Source of the DNA: a virus
IMG/VR virus record: IMGVR_UViG_3300034068_000486
Location: 1-21,252 of that record
DNA length: 21,252 nt
Strand: one strand, 5' to 3'
Part shown: positions 2,336-20,007 of the stretch, in pieces
Numbering within the stretch: position 1 is the first letter of the stretch
How the letters are laid out: each line of letters opens with the position of its first letter
Translations under genes and position numbers: made by a program
The notes under the pieces: model-generated
The model's database searches: none
What the model was told of the DNA's origin: nothing
Seen by the model: the letters and a program-made list of their open reading frames with translations, nothing else

Positions 2336-3290
2336 CGTGCCTGCTAAAAAAATACATGCGTACTCTCTTGCTGACTTTCCTGTGGTGTTTCTGAGTTTCG
2401 ACGAACCAAATGCTGATATTCACTGGGAAATGTTACAAAAGGTAACACCGCATAAAAATATTGCCAGAGTACATGGTGTAGTTGGTTTTGATACAGCTCA
2501 CAAAACAGCGGCCGCTCAATTCCCAAATAGCGAATATGTTATCACTGTAGATGCTGATAATCAAGTTGACCCTAAATTTTTTAAATGTTCATCTCCCAAA
2601 GATCTAAATGGAAAAGTAAGCTATACCTGGGGAGGTCGACAATACACAAACGGACTCATGTATGGCAACGGCGGATTAAAGTTGTGGAGCACAGAACACT
2701 TGGCCAATATGAAAAGTCATGAGCTAGCAGATGAAGAACGCGATGCAGTAGATTTTTGTTGGGACGCATCACGCTATAAAGAACTGCCAGGATGTTGGAG
2801 TAATGTTTACACCAATGGTAGTGCTTACCAAGCATTTCGCGTAGGTTTTCGAGAAGGTGTTAAACTTAGTATGGACCAAGGCACAGTATTGGAGTTTAAT
2901 GACTGGTCAACTTGTATGCATGCCGCTAACTATCAACGCTTGCTAACGTGGCTAGCTGTTGGCGCTGATGTAGCGCATGGTATGTGGAGTGTGTACGGAG
3001 CAAGATTAGCTGTATATCTGTTACAATATGAAAACTTTGACTTTGTGCAGATTAGGGACTATGATTGGTTCGAGCATTTTTTCAACGATCATGCCAATGC
3101 TGATCCAACAAAAGCAAGTAAAGCACTTGGCAAAAAAATAAGCGACGGCATGGGTTGGATCTTGCCTGATTTTGATAGTAAGCAAAGTAACTTTATCAAA
3201 ATGACACAACTACACCCTGCAAAGCCATTGACAAACGAAGACGTACAATGGCAAACTAATTTAAGTATGTTTGGCTGGTTTAATGAATAA
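2322..3290 (+). CDS. Putative GT-A-type glycosyltransferase-like protein (paralogue 3 of 3)
   Basis: A 322-residue protein, closest to the gene at 488. It shares FLSFDEPNAD, ARVHGVVG, DTAHKTAA, TVDADNQV (the DxD-like motif), YGNGGLKLW, AVDFCWD and YQAFRVGFREGVKL in the same order. It has no signal peptide or membrane segment. The ATG start at 2322 lies inside the end of the previous gene (14-base overlap) with AAGGA upstream; a second ATG two codons downstream is possible. The predicted role is transfer of a sugar or similar activated group, by analogy with GT-A enzymes. The strong similarity to paralogue 1 suggests a relatively recent duplication with selection to keep both. Confidence 0.72.
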   Translation: MSMFNVPAKKIHAYSLADFPVVFLSFDEPNADIHWEMLQKVTPHKNIARVHGVVGFDTAHKTAAAQFPNSEYVITVDADNQVDPKFFKCSSPKDLNGKVSYTWGGRQYTNGLMYGNGGLKLWSTEHLANMKSHELADEERDAVDFCWDASRYKELPGCWSNVYTNGSAYQAFRVGFREGVKLSMDQGTVLEFNDWSTCMHAANYQRLLTWLAVGADVAHGMWSVYGARLAVYLLQYENFDFVQIRDYDWFEHFFNDHANADPTKASKALGKKISDGMGWILPDFDSKQSNFIKMTQLHPAKPLTNEDVQWQTNLSMFGWFNE

Positions 3291-4317
3291 AAATACAGAA
3301 CTACGTTCTTCAATTTTATACTTTGTCGATGAAGCAATTGGCTTTCGTAAAAGTATACATCACTTTCATCGGTGGTTAGAATTCAATGAGCAAGTTGAAC
3401 TTGAGCGTCTGATCATTGAAATTGGGTTTGAGCAATTTGTTGATTTAAGAGCATTGGTTTCGGCTGTAAAATCTAAAAACGAAATCAGAATTTTATCTGC
3501 AGTTGATGGTATCAACTCTTATGGATTCTTTAATACATCCGACAGTGTTGATAAGTTAAAGTCAATGTTAATCAATGATGCATCAATTAAAACTATTGTT
3601 AGTTTTTTAAATTTCTATATCAGCGATATAACATTACTTTCGTGTGTTAATGATAATGATATTATTTTGCTTGCAAATGCTCTTGGCTTTTATTATCCAC
3701 GGAACAAAAAATATATTAATCAACTTGCGCTTACTGTGTGCAACTACCCTGACCTAAACTGGAAGGATGCGCTTAGTAGAAATCAAATTAAAAGCAAACA
3801 GTGGCTAATAGACAAACTTTCCGAGCACCTGACAAGAAACAATAAGGTAAACATATTCAAATCAAAAGCTGAACAAACTTCAATTATAGTTGGAGGTTGG
3901 GTTGGTGTGCTACCATTTCTTGCTAGTATGCAAGAAGTAAAGCTAGGCAAGGTTGTAAATATTGACATTGACAGTAGTGTACATGATGCGGCAAAAAGTT
4001 TGAACGTATCATTTAACCCGTTATACAATAATCTAGATAAAGATATAAGATTAGTTGATTTTTTTGCATATAAAAATCCATTGGTTATTGACACAATTGT
4101 TGAACATTTTAAAAATCACAATACCTGGATCAAAACTTTGCCAGCTGGTACTGAAGTGGTACTGCAAGGAAATAATATGTTTGATGTGGTAGATCATGTC
4201 AACTGTCACAGTTCGTTGAGTCAATTTGTAAAGAGTTGTGGACTATCTAAAATCACATGGCAAGGCGAACTTGTTTTGCACAAGTGTAACAGATACATGG
4301 TAATAGGTACTGTATGA
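3283..4317 (+). CDS. Two-part protein with C-terminal methyltransferase-like domain
   Basis: 344 residues from ATG at 3283, which overlaps the previous stop (ATGAATAA); a TTG at 3271 would add four residues but has no better site. The N-terminal half (about 1-190) is mostly helical and unrecognised. The C-terminal half looks like a Rossmann fold: IIVGGWVGVLP at about 201-211 matches the glycine-rich SAM loop, and NIDID at about 226-230 sits where the acidic residue for the SAM ribose belongs. Small methyltransferase-like proteins with a VGGWVGVL-type loop are, from memory, common in marine phages. The gene is more AT-rich than its neighbours. It overlaps the next gene by ATGA, so the two are co-translated. 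Methylation of a glycan, protein or small molecule is inferred; the substrate is unknown. Confidence 0.65.
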   Translation: MNKNTELRSSILYFVDEAIGFRKSIHHFHRWLEFNEQVELERLIIEIGFEQFVDLRALVSAVKSKNEIRILSAVDGINSYGFFNTSDSVDKLKSMLINDASIKTIVSFLNFYISDITLLSCVNDNDIILLANALGFYYPRNKKYINQLALTVCNYPDLNWKDALSRNQIKSKQWLIDKLSEHLTRNNKVNIFKSKAEQTSIIVGGWVGVLPFLASMQEVKLGKVVNIDIDSSVHDAAKSLNVSFNPLYNNLDKDIRLVDFFAYKNPLVIDTIVEHFKNHNTWIKTLPAGTEVVLQGNNMFDVVDHVNCHSSLSQFVKSCGLSKITWQGELVLHKCNRYMVIGTV

Positions 4318-6442: not shown

Positions 6443-7182
6443 AACCACTAGAATTTAGCGATCTAGACTCTACAGTCGCAACTGCATTGCAAATTTACGA
6501 AAACGCTGACCCTGACAAGTATCCAGAGTTTAAAATTACCAACGACACAGACCGTACCACACGGTTTCAGAAGTTTTTTAGAATGTTTTTAATTCCATCA
6601 AACTTTAATAATCACAATATTAGAAAAGCATTTGGCCTCTTTAAAGGCGACGAGTGCGTTTGCTTAGTTGGCGTTAGACGTTGGGGACACTTACCTTCTT
6701 GGTCTATTAGTTGGTTATTAAGCCCTAGCATTGGTGCTAGATTTATCCCAATCTTTCGTATATTGGTTCAGGAACTTTGTGCTTTCCATGAAAACGCAGG
6801 TATGAATGAGTTTTATGTAACTTACCCATCTACTAGAGAAGCCGCCTATAGTAAAATTATGTTACCTGTTAGAGAAAGATACTTTACATTCGTTGAGTGT
6901 GTGGTACCAAAGAATGAGCGACATCCGTATGGATTTATTCATGAGCTCATGGGAGGAGCACTTCATCCGCACGACATGTCTTTTAGAAGATATATACTAC
7001 GTAGAGATAACACTGAAGCCCCAAGTGCAGGTGGTAAGCATGTGGGATTAACAGAAGCAGAAACTGATTTGACTGCACGCCTTGGAAAAATTCAAGAGCG
7101 GAAGGACAAGATTGAAGAATACAAACAAAATCGAGCGAAAGAAAAACTAGAGAATGAAAATGCAAATAACGAAGCTACTTGA
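6427..7182 (+). CDS. Possible GNAT-like acyltransferase with C-terminal coiled coil
   Basis: 251 residues. The N-terminus (YTLKPLEFSDLDSTVATALQ) has the usual opening of GNAT proteins: a first strand followed by a helix. The middle (KAFGLFKGDECVCLVGVRRW) fits the central antiparallel strands. I do not see a clean acetyl-CoA loop, so the assignment is tentative. The last 45 residues (KIQERKDKIEEYKQNRAKEK) are highly charged and predicted to form a coiled coil, perhaps for oligomerisation. The ATG at 6427 lies within the end of the PP-loop gene, with AGGAAAA upstream. The 3' end overlaps the desaturase start by 29 bases. The charged tail could also be a scaffold-like extension. Confidence 0.6.
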   Translation: MSYTLKPLEFSDLDSTVATALQIYENADPDKYPEFKITNDTDRTTRFQKFFRMFLIPSNFNNHNIRKAFGLFKGDECVCLVGVRRWGHLPSWSISWLLSPSIGARFIPIFRILVQELCAFHENAGMNEFYVTYPSTREAAYSKIMLPVRERYFTFVECVVPKNERHPYGFIHELMGGALHPHDMSFRRYILRRDNTEAPSAGGKHVGLTEAETDLTARLGKIQERKDKIEEYKQNRAKEKLENENANNEAT

Positions 7183-8068
7183 CTGGTTTAAGGTACAACA
7201 AGACTTATACCAAAAGACTCATCAAATTCCATACATACTGGCAGTTTGGTTTCCATACCACATTGCTGCCATTATTGCTATCGTATTTGCTGTGGCAACA
7301 GAGTGGAGTTGGTGGTACCCTGTAACTGCATTGTGTGGTTGGGTCTTGCTTGATGGTGTAGGTAATAATTTAACATTGCATCGTTTTCTTAGTCACAAGT
7401 CATGGACTCCTTACAAGTGGGTAGAACCGTTTTTGTTATGGGCAGGTGTCATGGTCGGTGAAGGAAGTCCGCTATGGTGGGCCGCACTACATCGTGGACA
7501 TCATCATAGAGTAAGTGATCAGCCAGGTAAGGATTTTCACACTCCAGTTGGCAACGGCAAGTGGTGGAGTTACATGGGTTGGCAATTTGCAGTAAAACAG
7601 GACACAGTAAGTTTTAGATATGCAGTAGATTTGCTACGCGATCGTCGTGTGGTATTTTGCCATGAGAACTATAACAAAATTATCTTTGGTACGTTGTTAT
7701 TAAGCACCATATTGTTTGGATTAACATTTACTGTTTGGTTCTTTGTAATTGGTAGTTTAATGAGCCTACATGCAGATGGACTTGTTAATACATTTGGACA
7801 TGTGCCTGCCGCTGGTTACCAGAACTCGGACAACAACGATCAAAGTACAAATGTGTGGTGGCTTGGTTACTTCCATTGGGGTAGTGGCTGGCATAACAAC
7901 CATCATGCCAAAGCAAGTAGTTTTGACTTTGGCAGTAGTGTCAGTGGCCGCCAGCATGAATTTGATCCTTGTTTAATTCTAATGATACCGTTTGCACCTC
8001 CTTCGGAAGTGAAACGCTTGTGGTCTAAGCGTAAAGATGCTATACTAGCATATAACAACAAGGAATAA
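7154..8068 (+). CDS. Membrane fatty-acid desaturase (delta-9 acyl desaturase type)
   Basis: 304 residues. All three di-iron histidine boxes of membrane desaturases are present: HRFLSH at 76-81, HRGHH at 113-117 and HNNHH at 247-251. The spacing and sequences resemble acyl-CoA/acyl-lipid delta-9 desaturases. Hydrophobic segments at about 28-48, 53-72, 178-198 and 199-207 fit the usual four-helix topology with the boxes on the cytoplasmic face. The reaction is O2- and electron-dependent insertion of a cis double bond into a saturated acyl chain; no electron-donor gene is seen nearby, so host ferredoxin or cytochrome would be used. Length is normal, with no obvious breaks. It sits directly upstream of thyX with a 2-base gap. 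As an auxiliary metabolic gene it could raise membrane fluidity in infected cells. Confidence 0.88.
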   Translation: MKMQITKLLDWFKVQQDLYQKTHQIPYILAVWFPYHIAAIIAIVFAVATEWSWWYPVTALCGWVLLDGVGNNLTLHRFLSHKSWTPYKWVEPFLLWAGVMVGEGSPLWWAALHRGHHHRVSDQPGKDFHTPVGNGKWWSYMGWQFAVKQDTVSFRYAVDLLRDRRVVFCHENYNKIIFGTLLLSTILFGLTFTVWFFVIGSLMSLHADGLVNTFGHVPAAGYQNSDNNDQSTNVWWLGYFHWGSGWHNNHHAKASSFDFGSSVSGRQHEFDPCLILMIPFAPPSEVKRLWSKRKDAILAYNNKE

Positions 8069-8070
8069 AA

Positions 8071-8736
8071 ATGGATGTTAAGCTACTCAGTTACTCCCAA
8101 CCTACAAAAGAATTTGCGGCTTTGGGAGTTGCAGATGCTCAGGAACTCATTGCGTATTGCGCCCGTGTGTCCAATCCTAGCAACCAACTTAACACTGACA
8201 CATCAGAAAAGCTCATCAGATACCTCATCAAGCACCAACACTGGAGCCCACTTGAAATGGTCAGTGCCTGTATCGAAATCACAACCACAAGAGACATTGC
8301 AAGACAAATCTTGCGACACAGAAGTTTCAGTTTCCAAGAGTTCTCTCAACGCTATGCTGACCCAACGAAAGATCTCAATTTTGTTACAAGAGAAGCTAGA
8401 CTGCAAGACCCCAAGAATAGACAGAACAGCGTTGACGTCGATGATCAACTGTTACAAAATGAATGGTACAGAGCTCAACAACGAGTCATCTATGCCGCAC
8501 AAAGAGAATACGAGTGGGCTATCAAGAATGGCATAGCCAAAGAACAAGCTCGTGCAGTACTACCAGAGGGACTTATTGAAAGTCGCTTGTACATGAATGG
8601 TACATTACGCAGTTGGATTCACTTTATTGAATTGCGTAGTGCAAACGGTACACAAAAAGAACATCAGGAAGTTGCTAAAGCCTGTGCAGAAGTTATTGCC
8701 ACAGTATTTCCAATGGCAACAAGCTTAACACAATGA
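8071..8736 (+). CDS. thyX: Flavin-dependent thymidylate synthase ThyX
   Basis: 221 residues, full length for the family. The ThyX signature RHR-x7-S is exact: R82, H83, R84 and S92 in RHRSFSFQEFSQRY. Other family landmarks are RVSNPSN near residue 32, HWSPLEM at 57-63, RAVLPEGL at about 161-168 and the substrate-binding stretch RLYMNGTLRSWIHFIELR at 172-189. The enzyme makes dTMP from dUMP using methylene-tetrahydrofolate and FAD/NADPH, independently of ThyA. In phages it supplies thymidylate for genome replication and is common in marine tailed phages. ATG at 8071 has GGA eight bases upstream. The end overlaps the next start by ATGA, placing a nucleotide-metabolism gene inside an otherwise modification-oriented run. 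Confidence 0.96.
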   Translation: MDVKLLSYSQPTKEFAALGVADAQELIAYCARVSNPSNQLNTDTSEKLIRYLIKHQHWSPLEMVSACIEITTTRDIARQILRHRSFSFQEFSQRYADPTKDLNFVTREARLQDPKNRQNSVDVDDQLLQNEWYRAQQRVIYAAQREYEWAIKNGIAKEQARAVLPEGLIESRLYMNGTLRSWIHFIELRSANGTQKEHQEVAKACAEVIATVFPMATSLTQ

Positions 8737-13361: not shown

Positions 13362-14006
13362 TTACGCCACTGCTTTGACCTTTGGTGGTCTTCCCCGGCC
13401 CTGTTTGACTACGGTCGATGGCTGGGCTAGACTTGCGTGGTCGGCCACGACCTGCCCTTTTGGGTCCAACTTCTCTGCCTCCTCACGTAATCTACGTACT
13501 TCGACTTCGAATGTATTTGCTTGTGCTCTTAGCTTGGAAGCCAATTGTACATCATCAATTACACCAGGTGAGCCAGCTGGTGGGGTATATTGGCTAGCTG
13601 TTTTGTTGGTTGCAATGTCGCTTGCTCGTGTTCCACTGGCAGCCTGATCATTTGAAATACTTTTAAGTTGTTTGTTTAGTTCAACTAAATTAATTTCAAC
13701 ACCAGGTTGTGGTGTCATCATAATACTTTTAGTTGCAACCTTAATCATCCATCCACGTTGGTGGATAGTGTTCAACATATTTGTTCCGTCATTAAAAATC
13801 TGACGGAACAAATAGTCGCTTGGTTCCATACTAGCTTGGCAATTGGGGCTTTCAATGGCAGTAATTAAATCATCGTGATATAGTTGTGGTAATAGTCCAG
13901 TTGGAATAACCAATGCAGAGTCCGGATCTCCTGGTACTTCACGAAATACTACTACAACTTTCTTGTGTTGGCCATTTGTTCCAACGTGTTTGATAAATTG
14001 TGCCAT
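13362..14006 (-). CDS. Conserved marine-phage protein with AT-hook-like tail
   Basis: 214 residues. The N-terminal 120 residues (MAQFIKHVG...VVVVFREVPGDPDSALV and later GVEINLVELNKQL) match, from memory, a family widespread in T4-like marine phages whose role is not established. The middle is low-complexity (Ala, Ser, Thr, Pro), followed by a short coiled coil (VEVRRLREEAEKL). The C-terminus carries QGRGRPPKVK, an AT-hook-like motif that binds the minor groove of AT-rich DNA, so nucleic-acid contact is plausible. ATG at 14006 has a strong AGGAG five bases before it (AGGAGCCGATATG). It follows 14025-14291 by 18 bases and is surely co-transcribed with it. Confidence 0.82.
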   Translation of the reverse strand: MAQFIKHVGTNGQHKKVVVVFREVPGDPDSALVIPTGLLPQLYHDDLITAIESPNCQASMEPSDYLFRQIFNDGTNMLNTIHQRGWMIKVATKSIMMTPQPGVEINLVELNKQLKSISNDQAASGTRASDIATNKTASQYTPPAGSPGVIDDVQLASKLRAQANTFEVEVRRLREEAEKLDPKGQVVADHASLAQPSTVVKQGRGRPPKVKAVA

Positions 14007-14994: not shown

Positions 14995-16209
14995 TTAGTG
15001 CCTAGGTGGCGCATAGTTAGCAGTGATACCAAACGGTGCTGTGATATCTTTGCTACCATGCACAACAAACAGCGTGTCGCAATAGTCTGGGTCTCCCCAT
15101 GAACCAAACGGATAGCCATCTGTAAACACTACTAGTTGATGGGGTTGGACGTCATTGTCTTTCATCCATTGCCAAATGCAAGTAAAGTCTGTACCACCAC
15201 CACCTTGGATGTCGTACTCTCCCATGCTTCTACCATCGTCACCTGTAAATGTATCTTCGTTGTAAATGTCTGTATCAAAAGTAACTATACGCACCTTGTA
15301 AGAAGTAAACTGATCCAACGCACCTTGTACCATGCCAAGGAAGTCACTCAACATGCCTTCATCAATGGAACCAGAAGCGTCCAGTGCTACTACAATGTCA
15401 AGTTCCTCACCTGGTAACTGTCCAGGCATAATAGCGCCAGTATGCCAGGCCTTACGATTGGGACGCATCCAAGTGTAGTCGCTTTTAACACTACCACTAA
15501 ACTGAATACGCAACAAGTCTCTCAAGTCCATTACAGGGTTAGTAATATCTTTGACAAGGCGTTGGATGTCTGCTGGAGTATTGCCTGCGCCTGCATTTTT
15601 AGATGCTTGGATCACAGCCTCACGCCATTCATCACGCAATGCTTTACGTTCTTCTTCTGATAACTTCTTGAACTTAGGCTTGCCATTTTTGCCAACCTTG
15701 TCACCGCCCTGTCCACTGCCATCGCCATCTTCACCATCATCGCCGTCACCTTCCATGTCCAGGTGATCATCAAGTGTCATTTTAATAACTGTAGCATTCT
15801 CCATCAAGTCGTCATAGACTTCGTCGGCAGTCTTGCCTTCATACTTGCGGTCGGCCAAGATTGGTACAGTGGTAATTGCGGTGCCAACACTTTCTCGGAT
15901 AAGCATGTTGTTGATAACATAGTCACCTGCCATGTTCCATACTTGTGGTTCACGGTCGCCACGACGTGACATGTGATCAAAGATAATGTGTCCAAGCTCG
16001 TGTCCAAAGCCAAAGATCATTTCACCATCACTTAGTTTGGAAACAAACTCTGCATTGTAGTAGAACTTGCGGCCATCTGTTGCAATAGTCTTGCACCATT
16101 CAACTTCTTCCAGTTTCAGTCGTGCCGCCAAAGGTCCCCAGAAAGGATACTTTAACAGCATAGCAACACGGCTCTTAACTAGTTTATCACGGGCAGGCAG
16201 TTTGGACAT
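14995..16209 (-). CDS. VWA-domain putative metallopeptidase (MoxR partner)
   Basis: 404 residues. The N-terminal part contains a zinc-binding HELGH at 70-74 in GFGHELGHIIFDHM, followed by WNMAGDYVINNML at 91-103. This is the layout of the metallopeptidase-like/DUF2201 family. A low-complexity acidic linker (about 150-172, D/G/E-rich) leads to a C-terminal von Willebrand A domain with the MIDAS motif D277-A-S-G-S281 in IVVALDASGSIDEG, and later a VVFTDG strand. Such proteins act with MoxR AAA+ ATPases in metal insertion or complex remodelling; the ATPase is encoded just upstream. No signal peptide is seen, so it is cytoplasmic. ATG at 16209 has AGGAG at 16219-16223 and its own strong promoter, and a terminator closes the unit. 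Whether it cuts proteins or only binds metal is unknown. Confidence 0.88.
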   Translation of the reverse strand: MSKLPARDKLVKSRVAMLLKYPFWGPLAARLKLEEVEWCKTIATDGRKFYYNAEFVSKLSDGEMIFGFGHELGHIIFDHMSRRGDREPQVWNMAGDYVINNMLIRESVGTAITTVPILADRKYEGKTADEVYDDLMENATVIKMTLDDHLDMEGDGDDGEDGDGSGQGGDKVGKNGKPKFKKLSEEERKALRDEWREAVIQASKNAGAGNTPADIQRLVKDITNPVMDLRDLLRIQFSGSVKSDYTWMRPNRKAWHTGAIMPGQLPGEELDIVVALDASGSIDEGMLSDFLGMVQGALDQFTSYKVRIVTFDTDIYNEDTFTGDDGRSMGEYDIQGGGGTDFTCIWQWMKDNDVQPHQLVVFTDGYPFGSWGDPDYCDTLFVVHGSKDITAPFGITANYAPPRH

Positions 16210-16243
16210 TTTAGGTGGCTCCTATTTGTTTCTGTATGTATCT

Positions 16244-16272
16244 ATTATACTAGATATCTTGGTAATGGTCAA
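16244..16272 (-). promoter_or_regulatory. Sigma70-type promoter for the VWA/metallopeptidase gene
   Basis: On the minus strand TTGACC (16272-16267), a 17-base spacer and TATAAT (16249-16244) form a near-perfect promoter. The predicted start gives a leader of about 28 bases with AGGAGCCACC before the ATG. The -35 lies within the last codons of 16250-16600, whose TAG is the last three bases of the spacer. TATCTA...TAGATA arms (16239-16256) surround the -10 and an AACCGGTT palindrome (16271-16278) overlaps the -35; both could be operator sites. Confidence 0.8.
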
Positions 16273-16600
16273 CCGGTTTTTCATCTTTATCTTTTGGTCC
16301 TGATATATCCCATATCATGGCTATCTGTGGATCTCTAAACCAAATATGTTGCTTTGGCATAAAGTCCCAATCTAACCTCTTTAATCCTTGTTCTCTGGAC
16401 CATCTGGTAACTTCATTAATTGTGGCTCCTTTAGGGTAAGTTCGGACGGACCAACTTTTCCTTTGTTCTCGGAGCCACTCGCTAACATCGGAGGGGGAGG
16501 GTGGTTGGTCCGTCCAGACCTGTTGGGCTTCTGAGCCGTACATTATTTCAAGTACAGCCCAGTCCCTTAACCGTTTACTCGTCGGTGAGTAAGTTGGCAT
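16250..16600 (-). CDS. Hypothetical small protein between moxR-like and VWA genes
   Basis: 116 residues, tryptophan-rich and charged (SEWLREQRKSWSVRTYPK, then GLKRLDWDFMPKQ), with no recognised domain. ATG at 16600 overlaps the end of the MoxR-like gene by 26 bases and has no clear ribosome binding site, so translation would depend on coupling; a start at the internal Met20 is possible. The gene holds a perfect 12-base inverted repeat with a G-rich stretch (plus strand), and its last codons contain the -35 of the next gene's promoter. Coding composition looks real, but expression is uncertain. It may be a third member of the MoxR/VWA module. Confidence 0.6.
   Translation of the reverse strand: MPTYSPTSKRLRDWAVLEIMYGSEAQQVWTDQPPSPSDVSEWLREQRKSWSVRTYPKGATINEVTRWSREQGLKRLDWDFMPKQHIWFRDPQIAMIWDISGPKDKDEKPVDHYQDI
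16444..16515. repeat. Perfect 12-base inverted repeat with G-rich segment
   Basis: GGACGGACCAAC (16444-16455) and GTTGGTCCGTCC (16504-16515) are exact reverse complements separated by 48 bases. The spacer ends in a plus-strand purine tract GGAGGGGGAGGGTGG that, with the right arm, offers several G-runs (a two-layer G-quadruplex candidate). GC content is far above the surroundings. It lies wholly inside the 16250-16600 gene. Confidence 0.85.
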
Positions 16601-17675
16601 AGCGTTTGAAGAACTCTGGGAAGTTAGTCATCTTCTTACGATCAAACACAACCTTGTAGTTCTTCAATACAGTATGAGCACCCATGATAACCATCTCAGG
16701 TTCAAAGTTACTCATCATAAAGCCAAGCCAGTTGTCTGCACTCTTGTTAAAGTCTTCCAACTTACCGCTTCTCTTGCCATCTTCATAACGTGTACGAAGT
16801 TCGTAGCTCAAACTGGTAACTAGTGCGTATGCGGCACTTACCTCTTTGCTTTTGAAAGTGGTAACTTTGCCACTCAGTACATCTGATGGGTCAGGCAAGT
16901 CTGCGGCATGCTTGCGGTGTGCCATAAACTTAATTGCCATACCTTCGCCAACCAAGCCTGCTACCATGTCTGTGTTAGCACTGTCTGGCATGTCGTCATC
17001 AATCATCTCACTTACAAAACTCCATGTACGTGGAGTAGGGAAGGCACGATCGTGTTGAGTAGGCTCAAAGTTGTACAAGTCACCTTTGAACTGTTTTAAA
17101 AAGCCAACCACATGCGGATGGATCTCATTCATAATAGCCCATTGTTCCCAGTCTTCAAAGTCCACTCGGATTTCCAAATGCATGAAGCGGTTGGCCAGTG
17201 GGCTAGGCATACGATAGGTAACACCCTTATCACCCATTCGGTTACCTGCGGCAATTAGAACTACATTGTCTGGCAGGGTGTATTGTCCAACTTTGCGGTT
17301 AAGGATAAGCTGGTAAGCCGCGGCCTGAACAGCAGGAGGAGCAGAGTTAAGCTCATCTAAGAACAAGAAGATAGTGTCGTATTCTTTGGCAAAATCTTTG
17401 CTAGGCAATTCTGAAGGGGTAGCCCACTTCATAGTGTTATCACCTTGACTGTAGTAAGGGACACCTTTAATGTCTGTTGGATCCATAAGAGCCATACGCA
17501 AGTCGACTACAGTAGAGTTAGCAAACTCTGCGGCAACTTGGTTCACCATGTCACTCTTGCCTACGCCAGGAGGTCCCCAGATAAAGACTGGTCGGCGTTT
17601 TGCAACGGCTCGGCGCAGGATAGGTTTGCACTCGCTAATCTTAACGGTGCGGGTTTCGACAGTATTATTTCCCAT
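16575..17675 (-). CDS. MoxR-type AAA+ ATPase
   Basis: 366 residues. Walker A is GPPGVGKS at 34-41; Walker B is IFLFLDELN at 102-110, with the MoxR-like continuation SAPPAVQAAAYQLI. Sensor 1 is in IAAGNRMGDKG at 141-151 and a likely arginine finger is R163 (PLANRFMH). Family members are hexameric ATPases that remodel or activate protein complexes, usually working with a VWA-domain partner such as the gene two positions downstream (compare the RavA/ViaA and MoxR/VWA pairs). It is cytoplasmic. ATG at 17675 has AGGAG at 17683-17687 inside the leader AGGAGCCACC, the same leader as the VWA gene, and a consensus promoter just upstream. Length and motifs are intact. The client complex in a phage is unknown. 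Confidence 0.92.
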   Translation of the reverse strand: MGNNTVETRTVKISECKPILRRAVAKRRPVFIWGPPGVGKSDMVNQVAAEFANSTVVDLRMALMDPTDIKGVPYYSQGDNTMKWATPSELPSKDFAKEYDTIFLFLDELNSAPPAVQAAAYQLILNRKVGQYTLPDNVVLIAAGNRMGDKGVTYRMPSPLANRFMHLEIRVDFEDWEQWAIMNEIHPHVVGFLKQFKGDLYNFEPTQHDRAFPTPRTWSFVSEMIDDDMPDSANTDMVAGLVGEGMAIKFMAHRKHAADLPDPSDVLSGKVTTFKSKEVSAAYALVTSLSYELRTRYEDGKRSGKLEDFNKSADNWLGFMMSNFEPEMVIMGAHTVLKNYKVVFDRKKMTNFPEFFKRYANLLTDE

Positions 17676-17709
17676 TTGGTGGCTCCTACTTAGGGTGTGT
17701 TAAAATTAA

Positions 17710-17738
17710 ATTATAACATAAGATAGGGCATCTGTCAA
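17710..17738 (-). promoter_or_regulatory. Consensus sigma70 promoter for the MoxR-type gene
   Basis: On the minus strand TTGACA (17738-17733), 17 bases and TATAAT (17715-17710) match both hexamers and the ideal spacing exactly. The -35 lies in the loop of a hairpin whose 3' arm ends three bases before the -10. The leader of about 27 bases carries AGGAGCCACC. Confidence 0.88.
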
Positions 17739-17751
17739 CACCCCATCTTAT
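17718..17751 (-). terminator. Hairpin after 17756-18106, overlapping the moxR promoter
   Basis: ATAAGAT-A-GGG (17718-17728) pairs with CCCATCTTAT (17742-17751), giving a 10-pair stem with one bulged base and a 13-base loop. It starts five bases past the stop of the minus-strand gene 17756-18106 and is followed on that strand by a T-rich but interrupted stretch. It is terminator-like for that gene; as DNA it places the moxR -35 in the loop. Confidence 0.5.
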
Positions 17752-18866: not shown

Positions 18867-18884
18867 AAGTACGTCAATGCAGAA
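18844..18884. promoter_or_regulatory. Inverted repeat at divergent starts
   Basis: TTCTGCAT (18844-18851) and ATGCAGAA (18877-18884) are exact reverse complements 25 bases apart. Each arm contains a possible start codon, so both divergent genes could begin ATG-CAG-AA (Met-Gln-Asn). It may be a dimeric repressor site or a coincidence of coding. Confidence 0.4.
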
Positions 18885-20007
18885 CATATTAAAAAACACT
18901 CTTGCTGGTGTAACAACTAGCCTTGCCATGGTACCTGAGGTAGTTGCGTTTGCATTACTGGCTCATGTTAATCCTTTAGTTGGATTGTATGCGGCTTTCA
19001 TACTAGGATTGATAACTGCCGTGTTTGGTGGCCGCCCTGGACTCATCAGTGGAGGTGCTGGTAGTCTTGCAGTTGTTTCAGTTGCCTTGGTTGTAACACA
19101 TGGTGTCCAATATCTCTTTGCCTGTATCATCCTCATGGGCTTGATCCAAGTTGCATTTGGTGTGTTCAAGCTTGGCAAGTTGATTAAGCTGGTCAGCCCT
19201 GCTGTTATGACAGGGTTTGTAAATGGTCTTGCTCTTGTAATTTTTACAGCACAGTTTCACCAGGTACCTGAATCAGGCACGCCACTTTATACTATGCTTG
19301 GTTTAATTGCTTTGACCATTCTTGGCGTAGTTGTTGGGCCAAAAATTACTAAACACATTCCTGGTAGCTTGTTTGGTATAGTCTTAACCACAGGCGTTGT
19401 ATTGTTGTTTGGACTTGACACACAATTAGTCAAAGATGTTGCTGAAGTATCTGGTGCGTTCCCAACCTTTGCTTGGCCTGATGTGCCAATGACTCTAGAA
19501 ACACTAAAAATTATTGCACCTTACAGTTTTGTTTTAGCAGGCATTGGCTTGATTGAAACATTGTTAACAGCAAACTTAGTTGATAAGACAATTGGGGGCA
19601 TTAACCAGCCTAATAAAGAAAGTATGGCACAAGGTGCAGGTAACGTGCTTACTGGCTTGTTTGGCGGAATGGGTGGTTGTGCCATGATTGGTCAAACAGT
19701 TATTAACTTAGAAGCAGGCGGTCATCAACGTTTAGCAGGTGTAGTTGAGGCTCTGTGTATCTTGGCTTACATTCTATTTGCCAGTGTTGTTATTGAAAAC
19801 ATCCCACTGGCCGCATTAGTAGGAGTTATGTGTGTTGTATGCTATCACACATTTGATTGGAAAAGTCTACAGCTAAAACAAGCAGATGCAGGGGTAATGT
19901 TGGTAGTTACCGCAAGCACGTTTGCTTTTAATTTGGCGTATGCGGTGTTTATTGGTATTATAATTACAGCACTAATGCATTACTGGAAAGAAGTCAGGAA
20001 GATTTAA
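18877..20007 (+). CDS. SulP-family anion transporter lacking a STAS domain
   Basis: 376 residues, almost entirely membrane helices. Family landmarks: VPEVVAFALLA at 19-29 (TM1), GGRPGLISGGAGSLAVVSVA at 51-70 (the TM3 substrate region), GLIETLLTANLVD at 224-236, and FGGMGGCAMIGQTVINL at 262-278 with AGGHQRLAG after it. Relatives (SulP/SLC26) are usually 480-570 residues or longer, with a C-terminal cytoplasmic STAS domain; here the protein ends seven residues after the last helix (MHYWKEVRKI), so STAS is absent without an obvious frameshift. Substrates in the family are sulfate, bicarbonate or other anions; which one cannot be read here. It is the only transporter in the window and a likely auxiliary metabolic gene acting in the host inner membrane. 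No ribosome binding site is evident. Its stop overlaps the convergent gene's stop by three bases. Confidence 0.88.
   Translation: MQNILKNTLAGVTTSLAMVPEVVAFALLAHVNPLVGLYAAFILGLITAVFGGRPGLISGGAGSLAVVSVALVVTHGVQYLFACIILMGLIQVAFGVFKLGKLIKLVSPAVMTGFVNGLALVIFTAQFHQVPESGTPLYTMLGLIALTILGVVVGPKITKHIPGSLFGIVLTTGVVLLFGLDTQLVKDVAEVSGAFPTFAWPDVPMTLETLKIIAPYSFVLAGIGLIETLLTANLVDKTIGGINQPNKESMAQGAGNVLTGLFGGMGGCAMIGQTVINLEAGGHQRLAGVVEALCILAYILFASVVIENIPLAALVGVMCVVCYHTFDWKSLQLKQADAGVMLVVTASTFAFNLAYAVFIGIIITALMHYWKEVRKI

Follow-up and report, generated by a model that had tools for sequence, protein, structure and literature searches.

A conserved hairpin within a small phage gene presents a loop complementary to the ribosome-binding sites of the flanking moxR and VWA genes

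The inverted repeat at positions 16444-16515 of the window, i.e., the whole 21,252-nucleotide stretch of viral DNA analysed here, is almost certainly the outer stem of a conserved hairpin in a minus-strand mRNA, as indicated by comparison with related viral loci. The apical loop of this hairpin very probably pairs with the ribosome-binding sites (RBSs) of the two flanking genes, which encode a MoxR-like ATPase and a VWA protein. We consider it likely that this structure, embedded in a coding part of the moxR transcript, is an antisense hairpin which would mask the Shine-Dalgarno sites of both genes. While RBS-covering antisense RNAs are known, the search of open-licence papers turned up neither a conserved one inside a coding gene with flanking targets nor any phage element that targets RBSs to either side of itself, and an earlier description elsewhere is possible.

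The element is hosted by a small gene (16250..16600, minus strand) which encodes a 116-residue protein of no known family and shares a 26-nt overlap with the end of moxR. It sits between the moxR-like AAA+ ATPase gene (16575..17675, minus strand; phrog_1297) and a DUF2201 metallopeptidase-VWA gene (14995..16209, minus strand; phrog_1314). Homologues sharing 45-100% identity were found at about 50 loci in viral contigs, with moxR directly upstream in most and VWA downstream in many; none was found in isolated phage records or in bacterial genomes represented by one genome per species. A search of the small protein against Pfam gave nothing above threshold and one sub-threshold match to TusA, and no PHROG family was matched. 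Its AlphaFold model (pLDDT 78) had no significant fold match in the PDB (best E value 0.5), and one significant match to a viral protein of unknown function. The reading frame is intact in all homologues except L038, where one base is lost in an A-run. The frameshift in this locus (match 3001-3335) truncates the protein immediately ahead of the 3' arm of the hairpin, while the RNA element there still scores 75 bits; this is either a sequencing error or a lineage in which only the RNA function is kept.

The repeat consists of two exact 12-base arms, GGACGGACCAAC and its exact reverse complement, at 16444-16455 and 16504-16515 and 48 bases apart, just as an earlier sequence-only reading had placed them, and the 12-mer has no further copy in the contig. 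That reading also called the repeat very unlikely by chance. The repeat is real; of 100 sequences made by dinucleotide shuffling of the window, 28 contained a perfect 12-mer inverted repeat within 100 bases. As the bare repeat is just moderately unusual, the case for the element rests on comparative evidence. The predicted RNA fold of the region has a z score of -2.6. No second copy of the element was detected in the same contigs, the weak extra matches being mostly the same site on the other strand. Elsewhere in the window, a 14-base perfect inverted repeat with a 9-base loop lies at 13778-13814, inside another minus-strand gene (13362-14006).

In the mRNA sense, the outer stem P1 is formed by the 5' arm GGACGGACCAAC (16504..16515, minus strand) and the 3' arm GUUGGUCCGUCC (16444..16455, minus strand), and is extended by one U-G pair between 16516 and 16443. 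The inner helix P2 pairs GUUAGCG (16480..16486, minus strand) with CGAGAAC (16465..16471, minus strand), the latter being CGCGAAC in most relatives. In a gap-free set of 28 distinct viral sequences, covering the 13 pairs of P1 and 6 pairs of P2 (19 pairs; 532 cells), base pairing is kept in 98.7% of the cells. Changes on both sides were found in 9 of the 19 pairs, with 29 such cells compared to 4.8 in shuffles (0 of 500), and pairing falls to 26-47% when the 3' partners are slid by 1-3 bases. RNAalifold, run without guidance, returned the same structure minus one pair. Randomisation of synonymous codons leaves an average of 9.7 pairs in P1, against 12.9 observed. When mapped on a tree built from the adjacent moxR DNA, pair 12-63 (numbering of alignment A2) has changed at least 12 times and pair 4-71 at least 6 times.

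Many of the paired changes are silent (CAA/AGT to CAG/AGC; ACG/TCC to ACA/TCT), and others alter the protein. Thus, ACG/GTC is replaced by TTG/AAC in L039 and by CAG/TGC in L139, so that two adjacent pairs are altered on both sides (UU/AA and CA/UG, respectively) and the amino acids differ. In L150/L151 much of both arms is rewritten, to CGAGAGGGCCAGG (or CGAGAAGGTCAGG) and CCTGGCCTTCTCG, with all 13 pairs retained. The P2 pairs GCG/CGC become CUG/CAG in these same two loci and CCG/CGG in L059, a sequence left out of model building which keeps 12 of the 13 P1 pairs, a recompensated P2 and the loop. The compensatory changes which maintain the element override amino-acid identity. Compensation between the arms in relatives, the check that the sequence-only reading had itself named, was strongly positive, and its suggestion that the structure spans codons under selection at the nucleic-acid level is borne out by the same changes.

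The substitutions also discriminate between molecules and strands. By our own count, the base-pair cells read in the mRNA sense include about 29 G-U and about 4 A-C combinations. Part of this asymmetry is forced by fixed Trp codons. At pair 12-63, however, all four combinations would be silent, and A-U, G-C and G-U were found while A-C never was. Common G-U with A-C almost absent indicates an RNA of the sense strand, and is predicted neither by a DNA cruciform nor by an antisense transcript. A role at the DNA level, with a DNA-binding protein recognising GGAGCCAC/GTGGCTCC as its operator and with the arms serving as a cruciform or as a dyad bound by protein, would account for the identical double-stranded octamer at moxR, VWA and the hairpin. 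We regard it as highly improbable, because a cruciform cannot tell G-U from A-C, the arms show base-pair compensation, and the octamer is located at the RBS, downstream of the promoter. Still less weight, close to none, is given to the plus-strand G-quadruplex that had been proposed from the four G-runs in the window copy. These runs would form a two-tetrad candidate only, on the strand opposite to the RNA (antisense to the gene), and are not conserved, about two thirds of the relatives being without the motif; the G-quadruplex was thus rejected as an element.

The loop of the minus-strand hairpin presents the octamer GUGGCUCC (16471..16478, minus strand), an exact complement of GGAGCCAC whose last C also closes P2. 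The codons of the loop are frozen against the codon bias of the gene: Leu is encoded by CTC in the loop of 29 of 31 sequences, compared to 2 of 175 Leu codons in the rest of the gene, Ser by AGC in 29/29 vs 14/118, and Glu by GAG in 30/31 vs 29/182. The octamer as a whole is kept in 93% of relatives, as opposed to 0.13% of synonymous randomisations. An overlapping frame was considered as a cause of the frozen codons and rejected, the other same-strand frames containing stops or unconserved changes within the element.

On the minus strand of the window, GGAGCCAC occurs three times: just 5' of the moxR ATG (17679..17686), just 5' of the VWA ATG (16215..16222), in both cases in the Shine-Dalgarno region, and within the small gene (16422..16429). 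The loop forms 8 of 8 pairs with the moxR and VWA sites in most lineages. A scan of about 1.2 Mb in 16 related contigs located GGAGCCAC followed after 0-8 nt by ATG at both moxR and VWA, in some contigs also at the internal site, and at just one other place. At three other neighbouring genes, GGAG is kept and is followed by diverse bases other than CCAC, which indicates that CCAC is not shared by the RBSs of these viruses in general. Since GGAG is expected from Shine-Dalgarno function, CCAC alone constitutes independent evidence. The octamer was absent from the moxR start regions of PA5oct and L094. The VWA RBS variants GGAGUCAC, GGAGUUAC and GGAGCCAU can pair with the standard loop through G-U.

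Loop mutations were found in L029 and L032 only, and the RBSs of both lineages are changed too, with the loop/RBS pairing lost and not restored. In L145/L148 pairing is lost for moxR only, while L149 has neither stem nor loop, and non-matching RBSs. True compensatory switches between loop and RBS were not seen among the relatives, the loop and RBSs being so conserved. With respect to raw duplex energy, moxR ranks third among the annotated starts of the window and is surpassed by many arbitrary positions; this ranking is not discriminating by itself, and specificity rests on the exact octamer. The gene at 13362-14006 (minus strand) might be a weak extra target, as its RBS AAAAGGAGCCGATATG agrees with the loop complement at six bases, though not in all relatives. 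Taken from sequence, the element presents what would be expected of an antisense RBS-blocking hairpin, namely a conserved structured loop complementary to the Shine-Dalgarno sequences of specific mRNAs. The inner helix and this complementarity did not figure in the sequence-only reading, and give a more specific function than the processing, protein binding or replication suggested there. It might be argued that the hairpin serves processing or stability (as an RNase site, a pause or a protein-binding site) and that its loop/RBS complementarity is incidental, as RNases could target a stable stem located between cistrons and the loop could be read by an RNA-binding protein. We find this improbable, because the frozen loop matches both flanking RBSs over exactly 8 nt and almost nothing else.

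The third copy of GGAGCCAC, within the small gene, is partly conserved. Many relatives have a GAGCCA(C)-like segment 3' of the stem, in a codon register which differs in L034 and L059, and the copy is absent or weak in L013, L021, L029, L032, L039 and L139; in codon randomisation its conservation has a mean z of 1.3. It may, with weak support, form a pseudoknot with the loop in cis. The surrounding sequence CCCTAAAGGAGCCACAATTAATG (16415-16437, minus strand) is similar to the RBS region of moxR and is followed by an 11-codon ORF (MKLP...) in another frame, and the codons GGA, GCC, GAA and GTT in this segment are nearly frozen in the relatives too. An internal start at this ORF was rejected, the ATG being absent in L024, L032, L034, L059 and others.

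Sigma70-type promoters are predicted upstream of both targets, TTGACA-17-TATAAT for moxR (17710..17738, minus strand) and TTGACC-17-TATAAT for VWA (16244..16272, minus strand), the latter downstream of the hairpin. Near-consensus promoters were found at moxR in 26 of 27 relatives and at VWA in 29 of 29. Judged by these predictions, the hairpin is positioned within the moxR transcription unit and upstream of the VWA promoter. A VWA message made from its own promoter would not contain the hairpin, so that action on VWA would be in trans, unless read-through dominates. The distance from the element to VWA ranges from 208 to 972 nt across relatives; in L039/L139, other sequence places VWA 943-972 nt from the element and the complementarity persists. 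Neither a promoter nor a terminator dedicated to a separate small RNA was detected.

In the proposed mechanism, the moxR transcript would continue into the small gene, whose RNA is predicted to fold into the 13-bp P1, a large internal loop, the short P2 and the apical loop with GUGGCUCC. The loop would make 8 Watson-Crick pairs with GGAGCCAC at both RBSs, that of moxR lying on the same transcript about 1.2 kb upstream of the hairpin and that of VWA, under its own promoter, about 230 nt downstream. This pairing would block binding of the 30S subunit, and the MoxR ATPase and its VWA partner would be held low and in balance. Thus, the hairpin probably shuts down or balances translation of the chaperone pair; we infer the repression itself and the pairing in the cell, which may act in trans or by long-range folding and may involve release of a processed small RNA. 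A point against the antisense model is that the hairpin would be melted by ribosomes during translation of the small ORF. We further speculate, as a possibility to which we give somewhat less than even chances, that the coding gene doubles as a trans-acting antisense RNA for both flanking genes, such that the repressors of moxR and of its partner are both part of the moxR message, the internal RBS copy serves as a cis decoy or pseudoknot, and feedback by RNA only fixes the ratio of the two-part chaperone.

Alternatively, the loop and RBSs might pair solely within one moxR-small gene-VWA transcript, as a long-range cis switch. The hairpin would then be opened, and the RBSs released, when the small ORF is translated, and a local pseudoknot made by the third copy would compete. 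The co-transcription of the element with moxR implied by its position, the overlap of the small ORF with the end of moxR, and the segment following the stem in many relatives are consistent with such a switch. It is nevertheless unlikely given the promoter of VWA itself in every relative tested, the variable distance to VWA, and the absence or weakness of the third copy in six relatives.

The antisense hairpin has several counterparts among known systems. The c4 RNA is made from the same transcript as its target. The action of this antisense RNA of phages P1/P7 (RF01695) depends on structure, its complementary stretches are probably in loops, and it blocks the RBS of the target mRNA (PMC12197685). 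The present element likewise has, by sequence, an unpaired loop complementary to target RBSs. Its fold differs from that of c4, however, with no covariance-model match, and a search of 4227 Rfam families gave nothing for the element up to an E value of 5 beyond chance-level matches. Moreover, the c4 target is the antirepressor (ant) mRNA, whereas the targets here are a moxR and VWA chaperone pair, one on each side of an element within conserved protein-coding sequence. In Staphylococcus aureus RNAIII, C-rich hairpin loops pair with the Shine-Dalgarno regions of several mRNAs and stop initiation (PMC2837412). The hairpin loop facing Shine-Dalgarno regions is shared, but RNAIII is a regulatory RNA in its own right whose targets are unlinked, while this loop lies in coding sequence between its two targets. 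Bacterial ORF-internal and mRNA-derived small RNAs, in the parts of the reports available (PMC7815308, PMC6393394), also are regulatory RNAs nested in mRNAs; those cases are bacterial, and the present element is from a phage. The same kind of gene pair, MoxR-vWA(metallopeptidase), is found in jumbo phages, where it is proposed to serve virion assembly, and the available portion of that account describes no RNA regulation of the pair (PMC7824862). The antisense hairpin thus provides a directly testable model of how large phages would tune this chaperone pair, and asking which codons are frozen can reveal structured regulatory RNAs in phage genomes.

Two further observations were made in the window. 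A dyad, ATAAGATGGGG...CCCTATCTTAT (17718-17751, minus strand), overlaps the moxR promoter at its -35 box and is a possible operator for a repressor. By inspection, the translations of 18877-20007, 7154-8068 and 8071-8736 resemble a SulP-type transporter, a fatty acid desaturase and ThyX, respectively.
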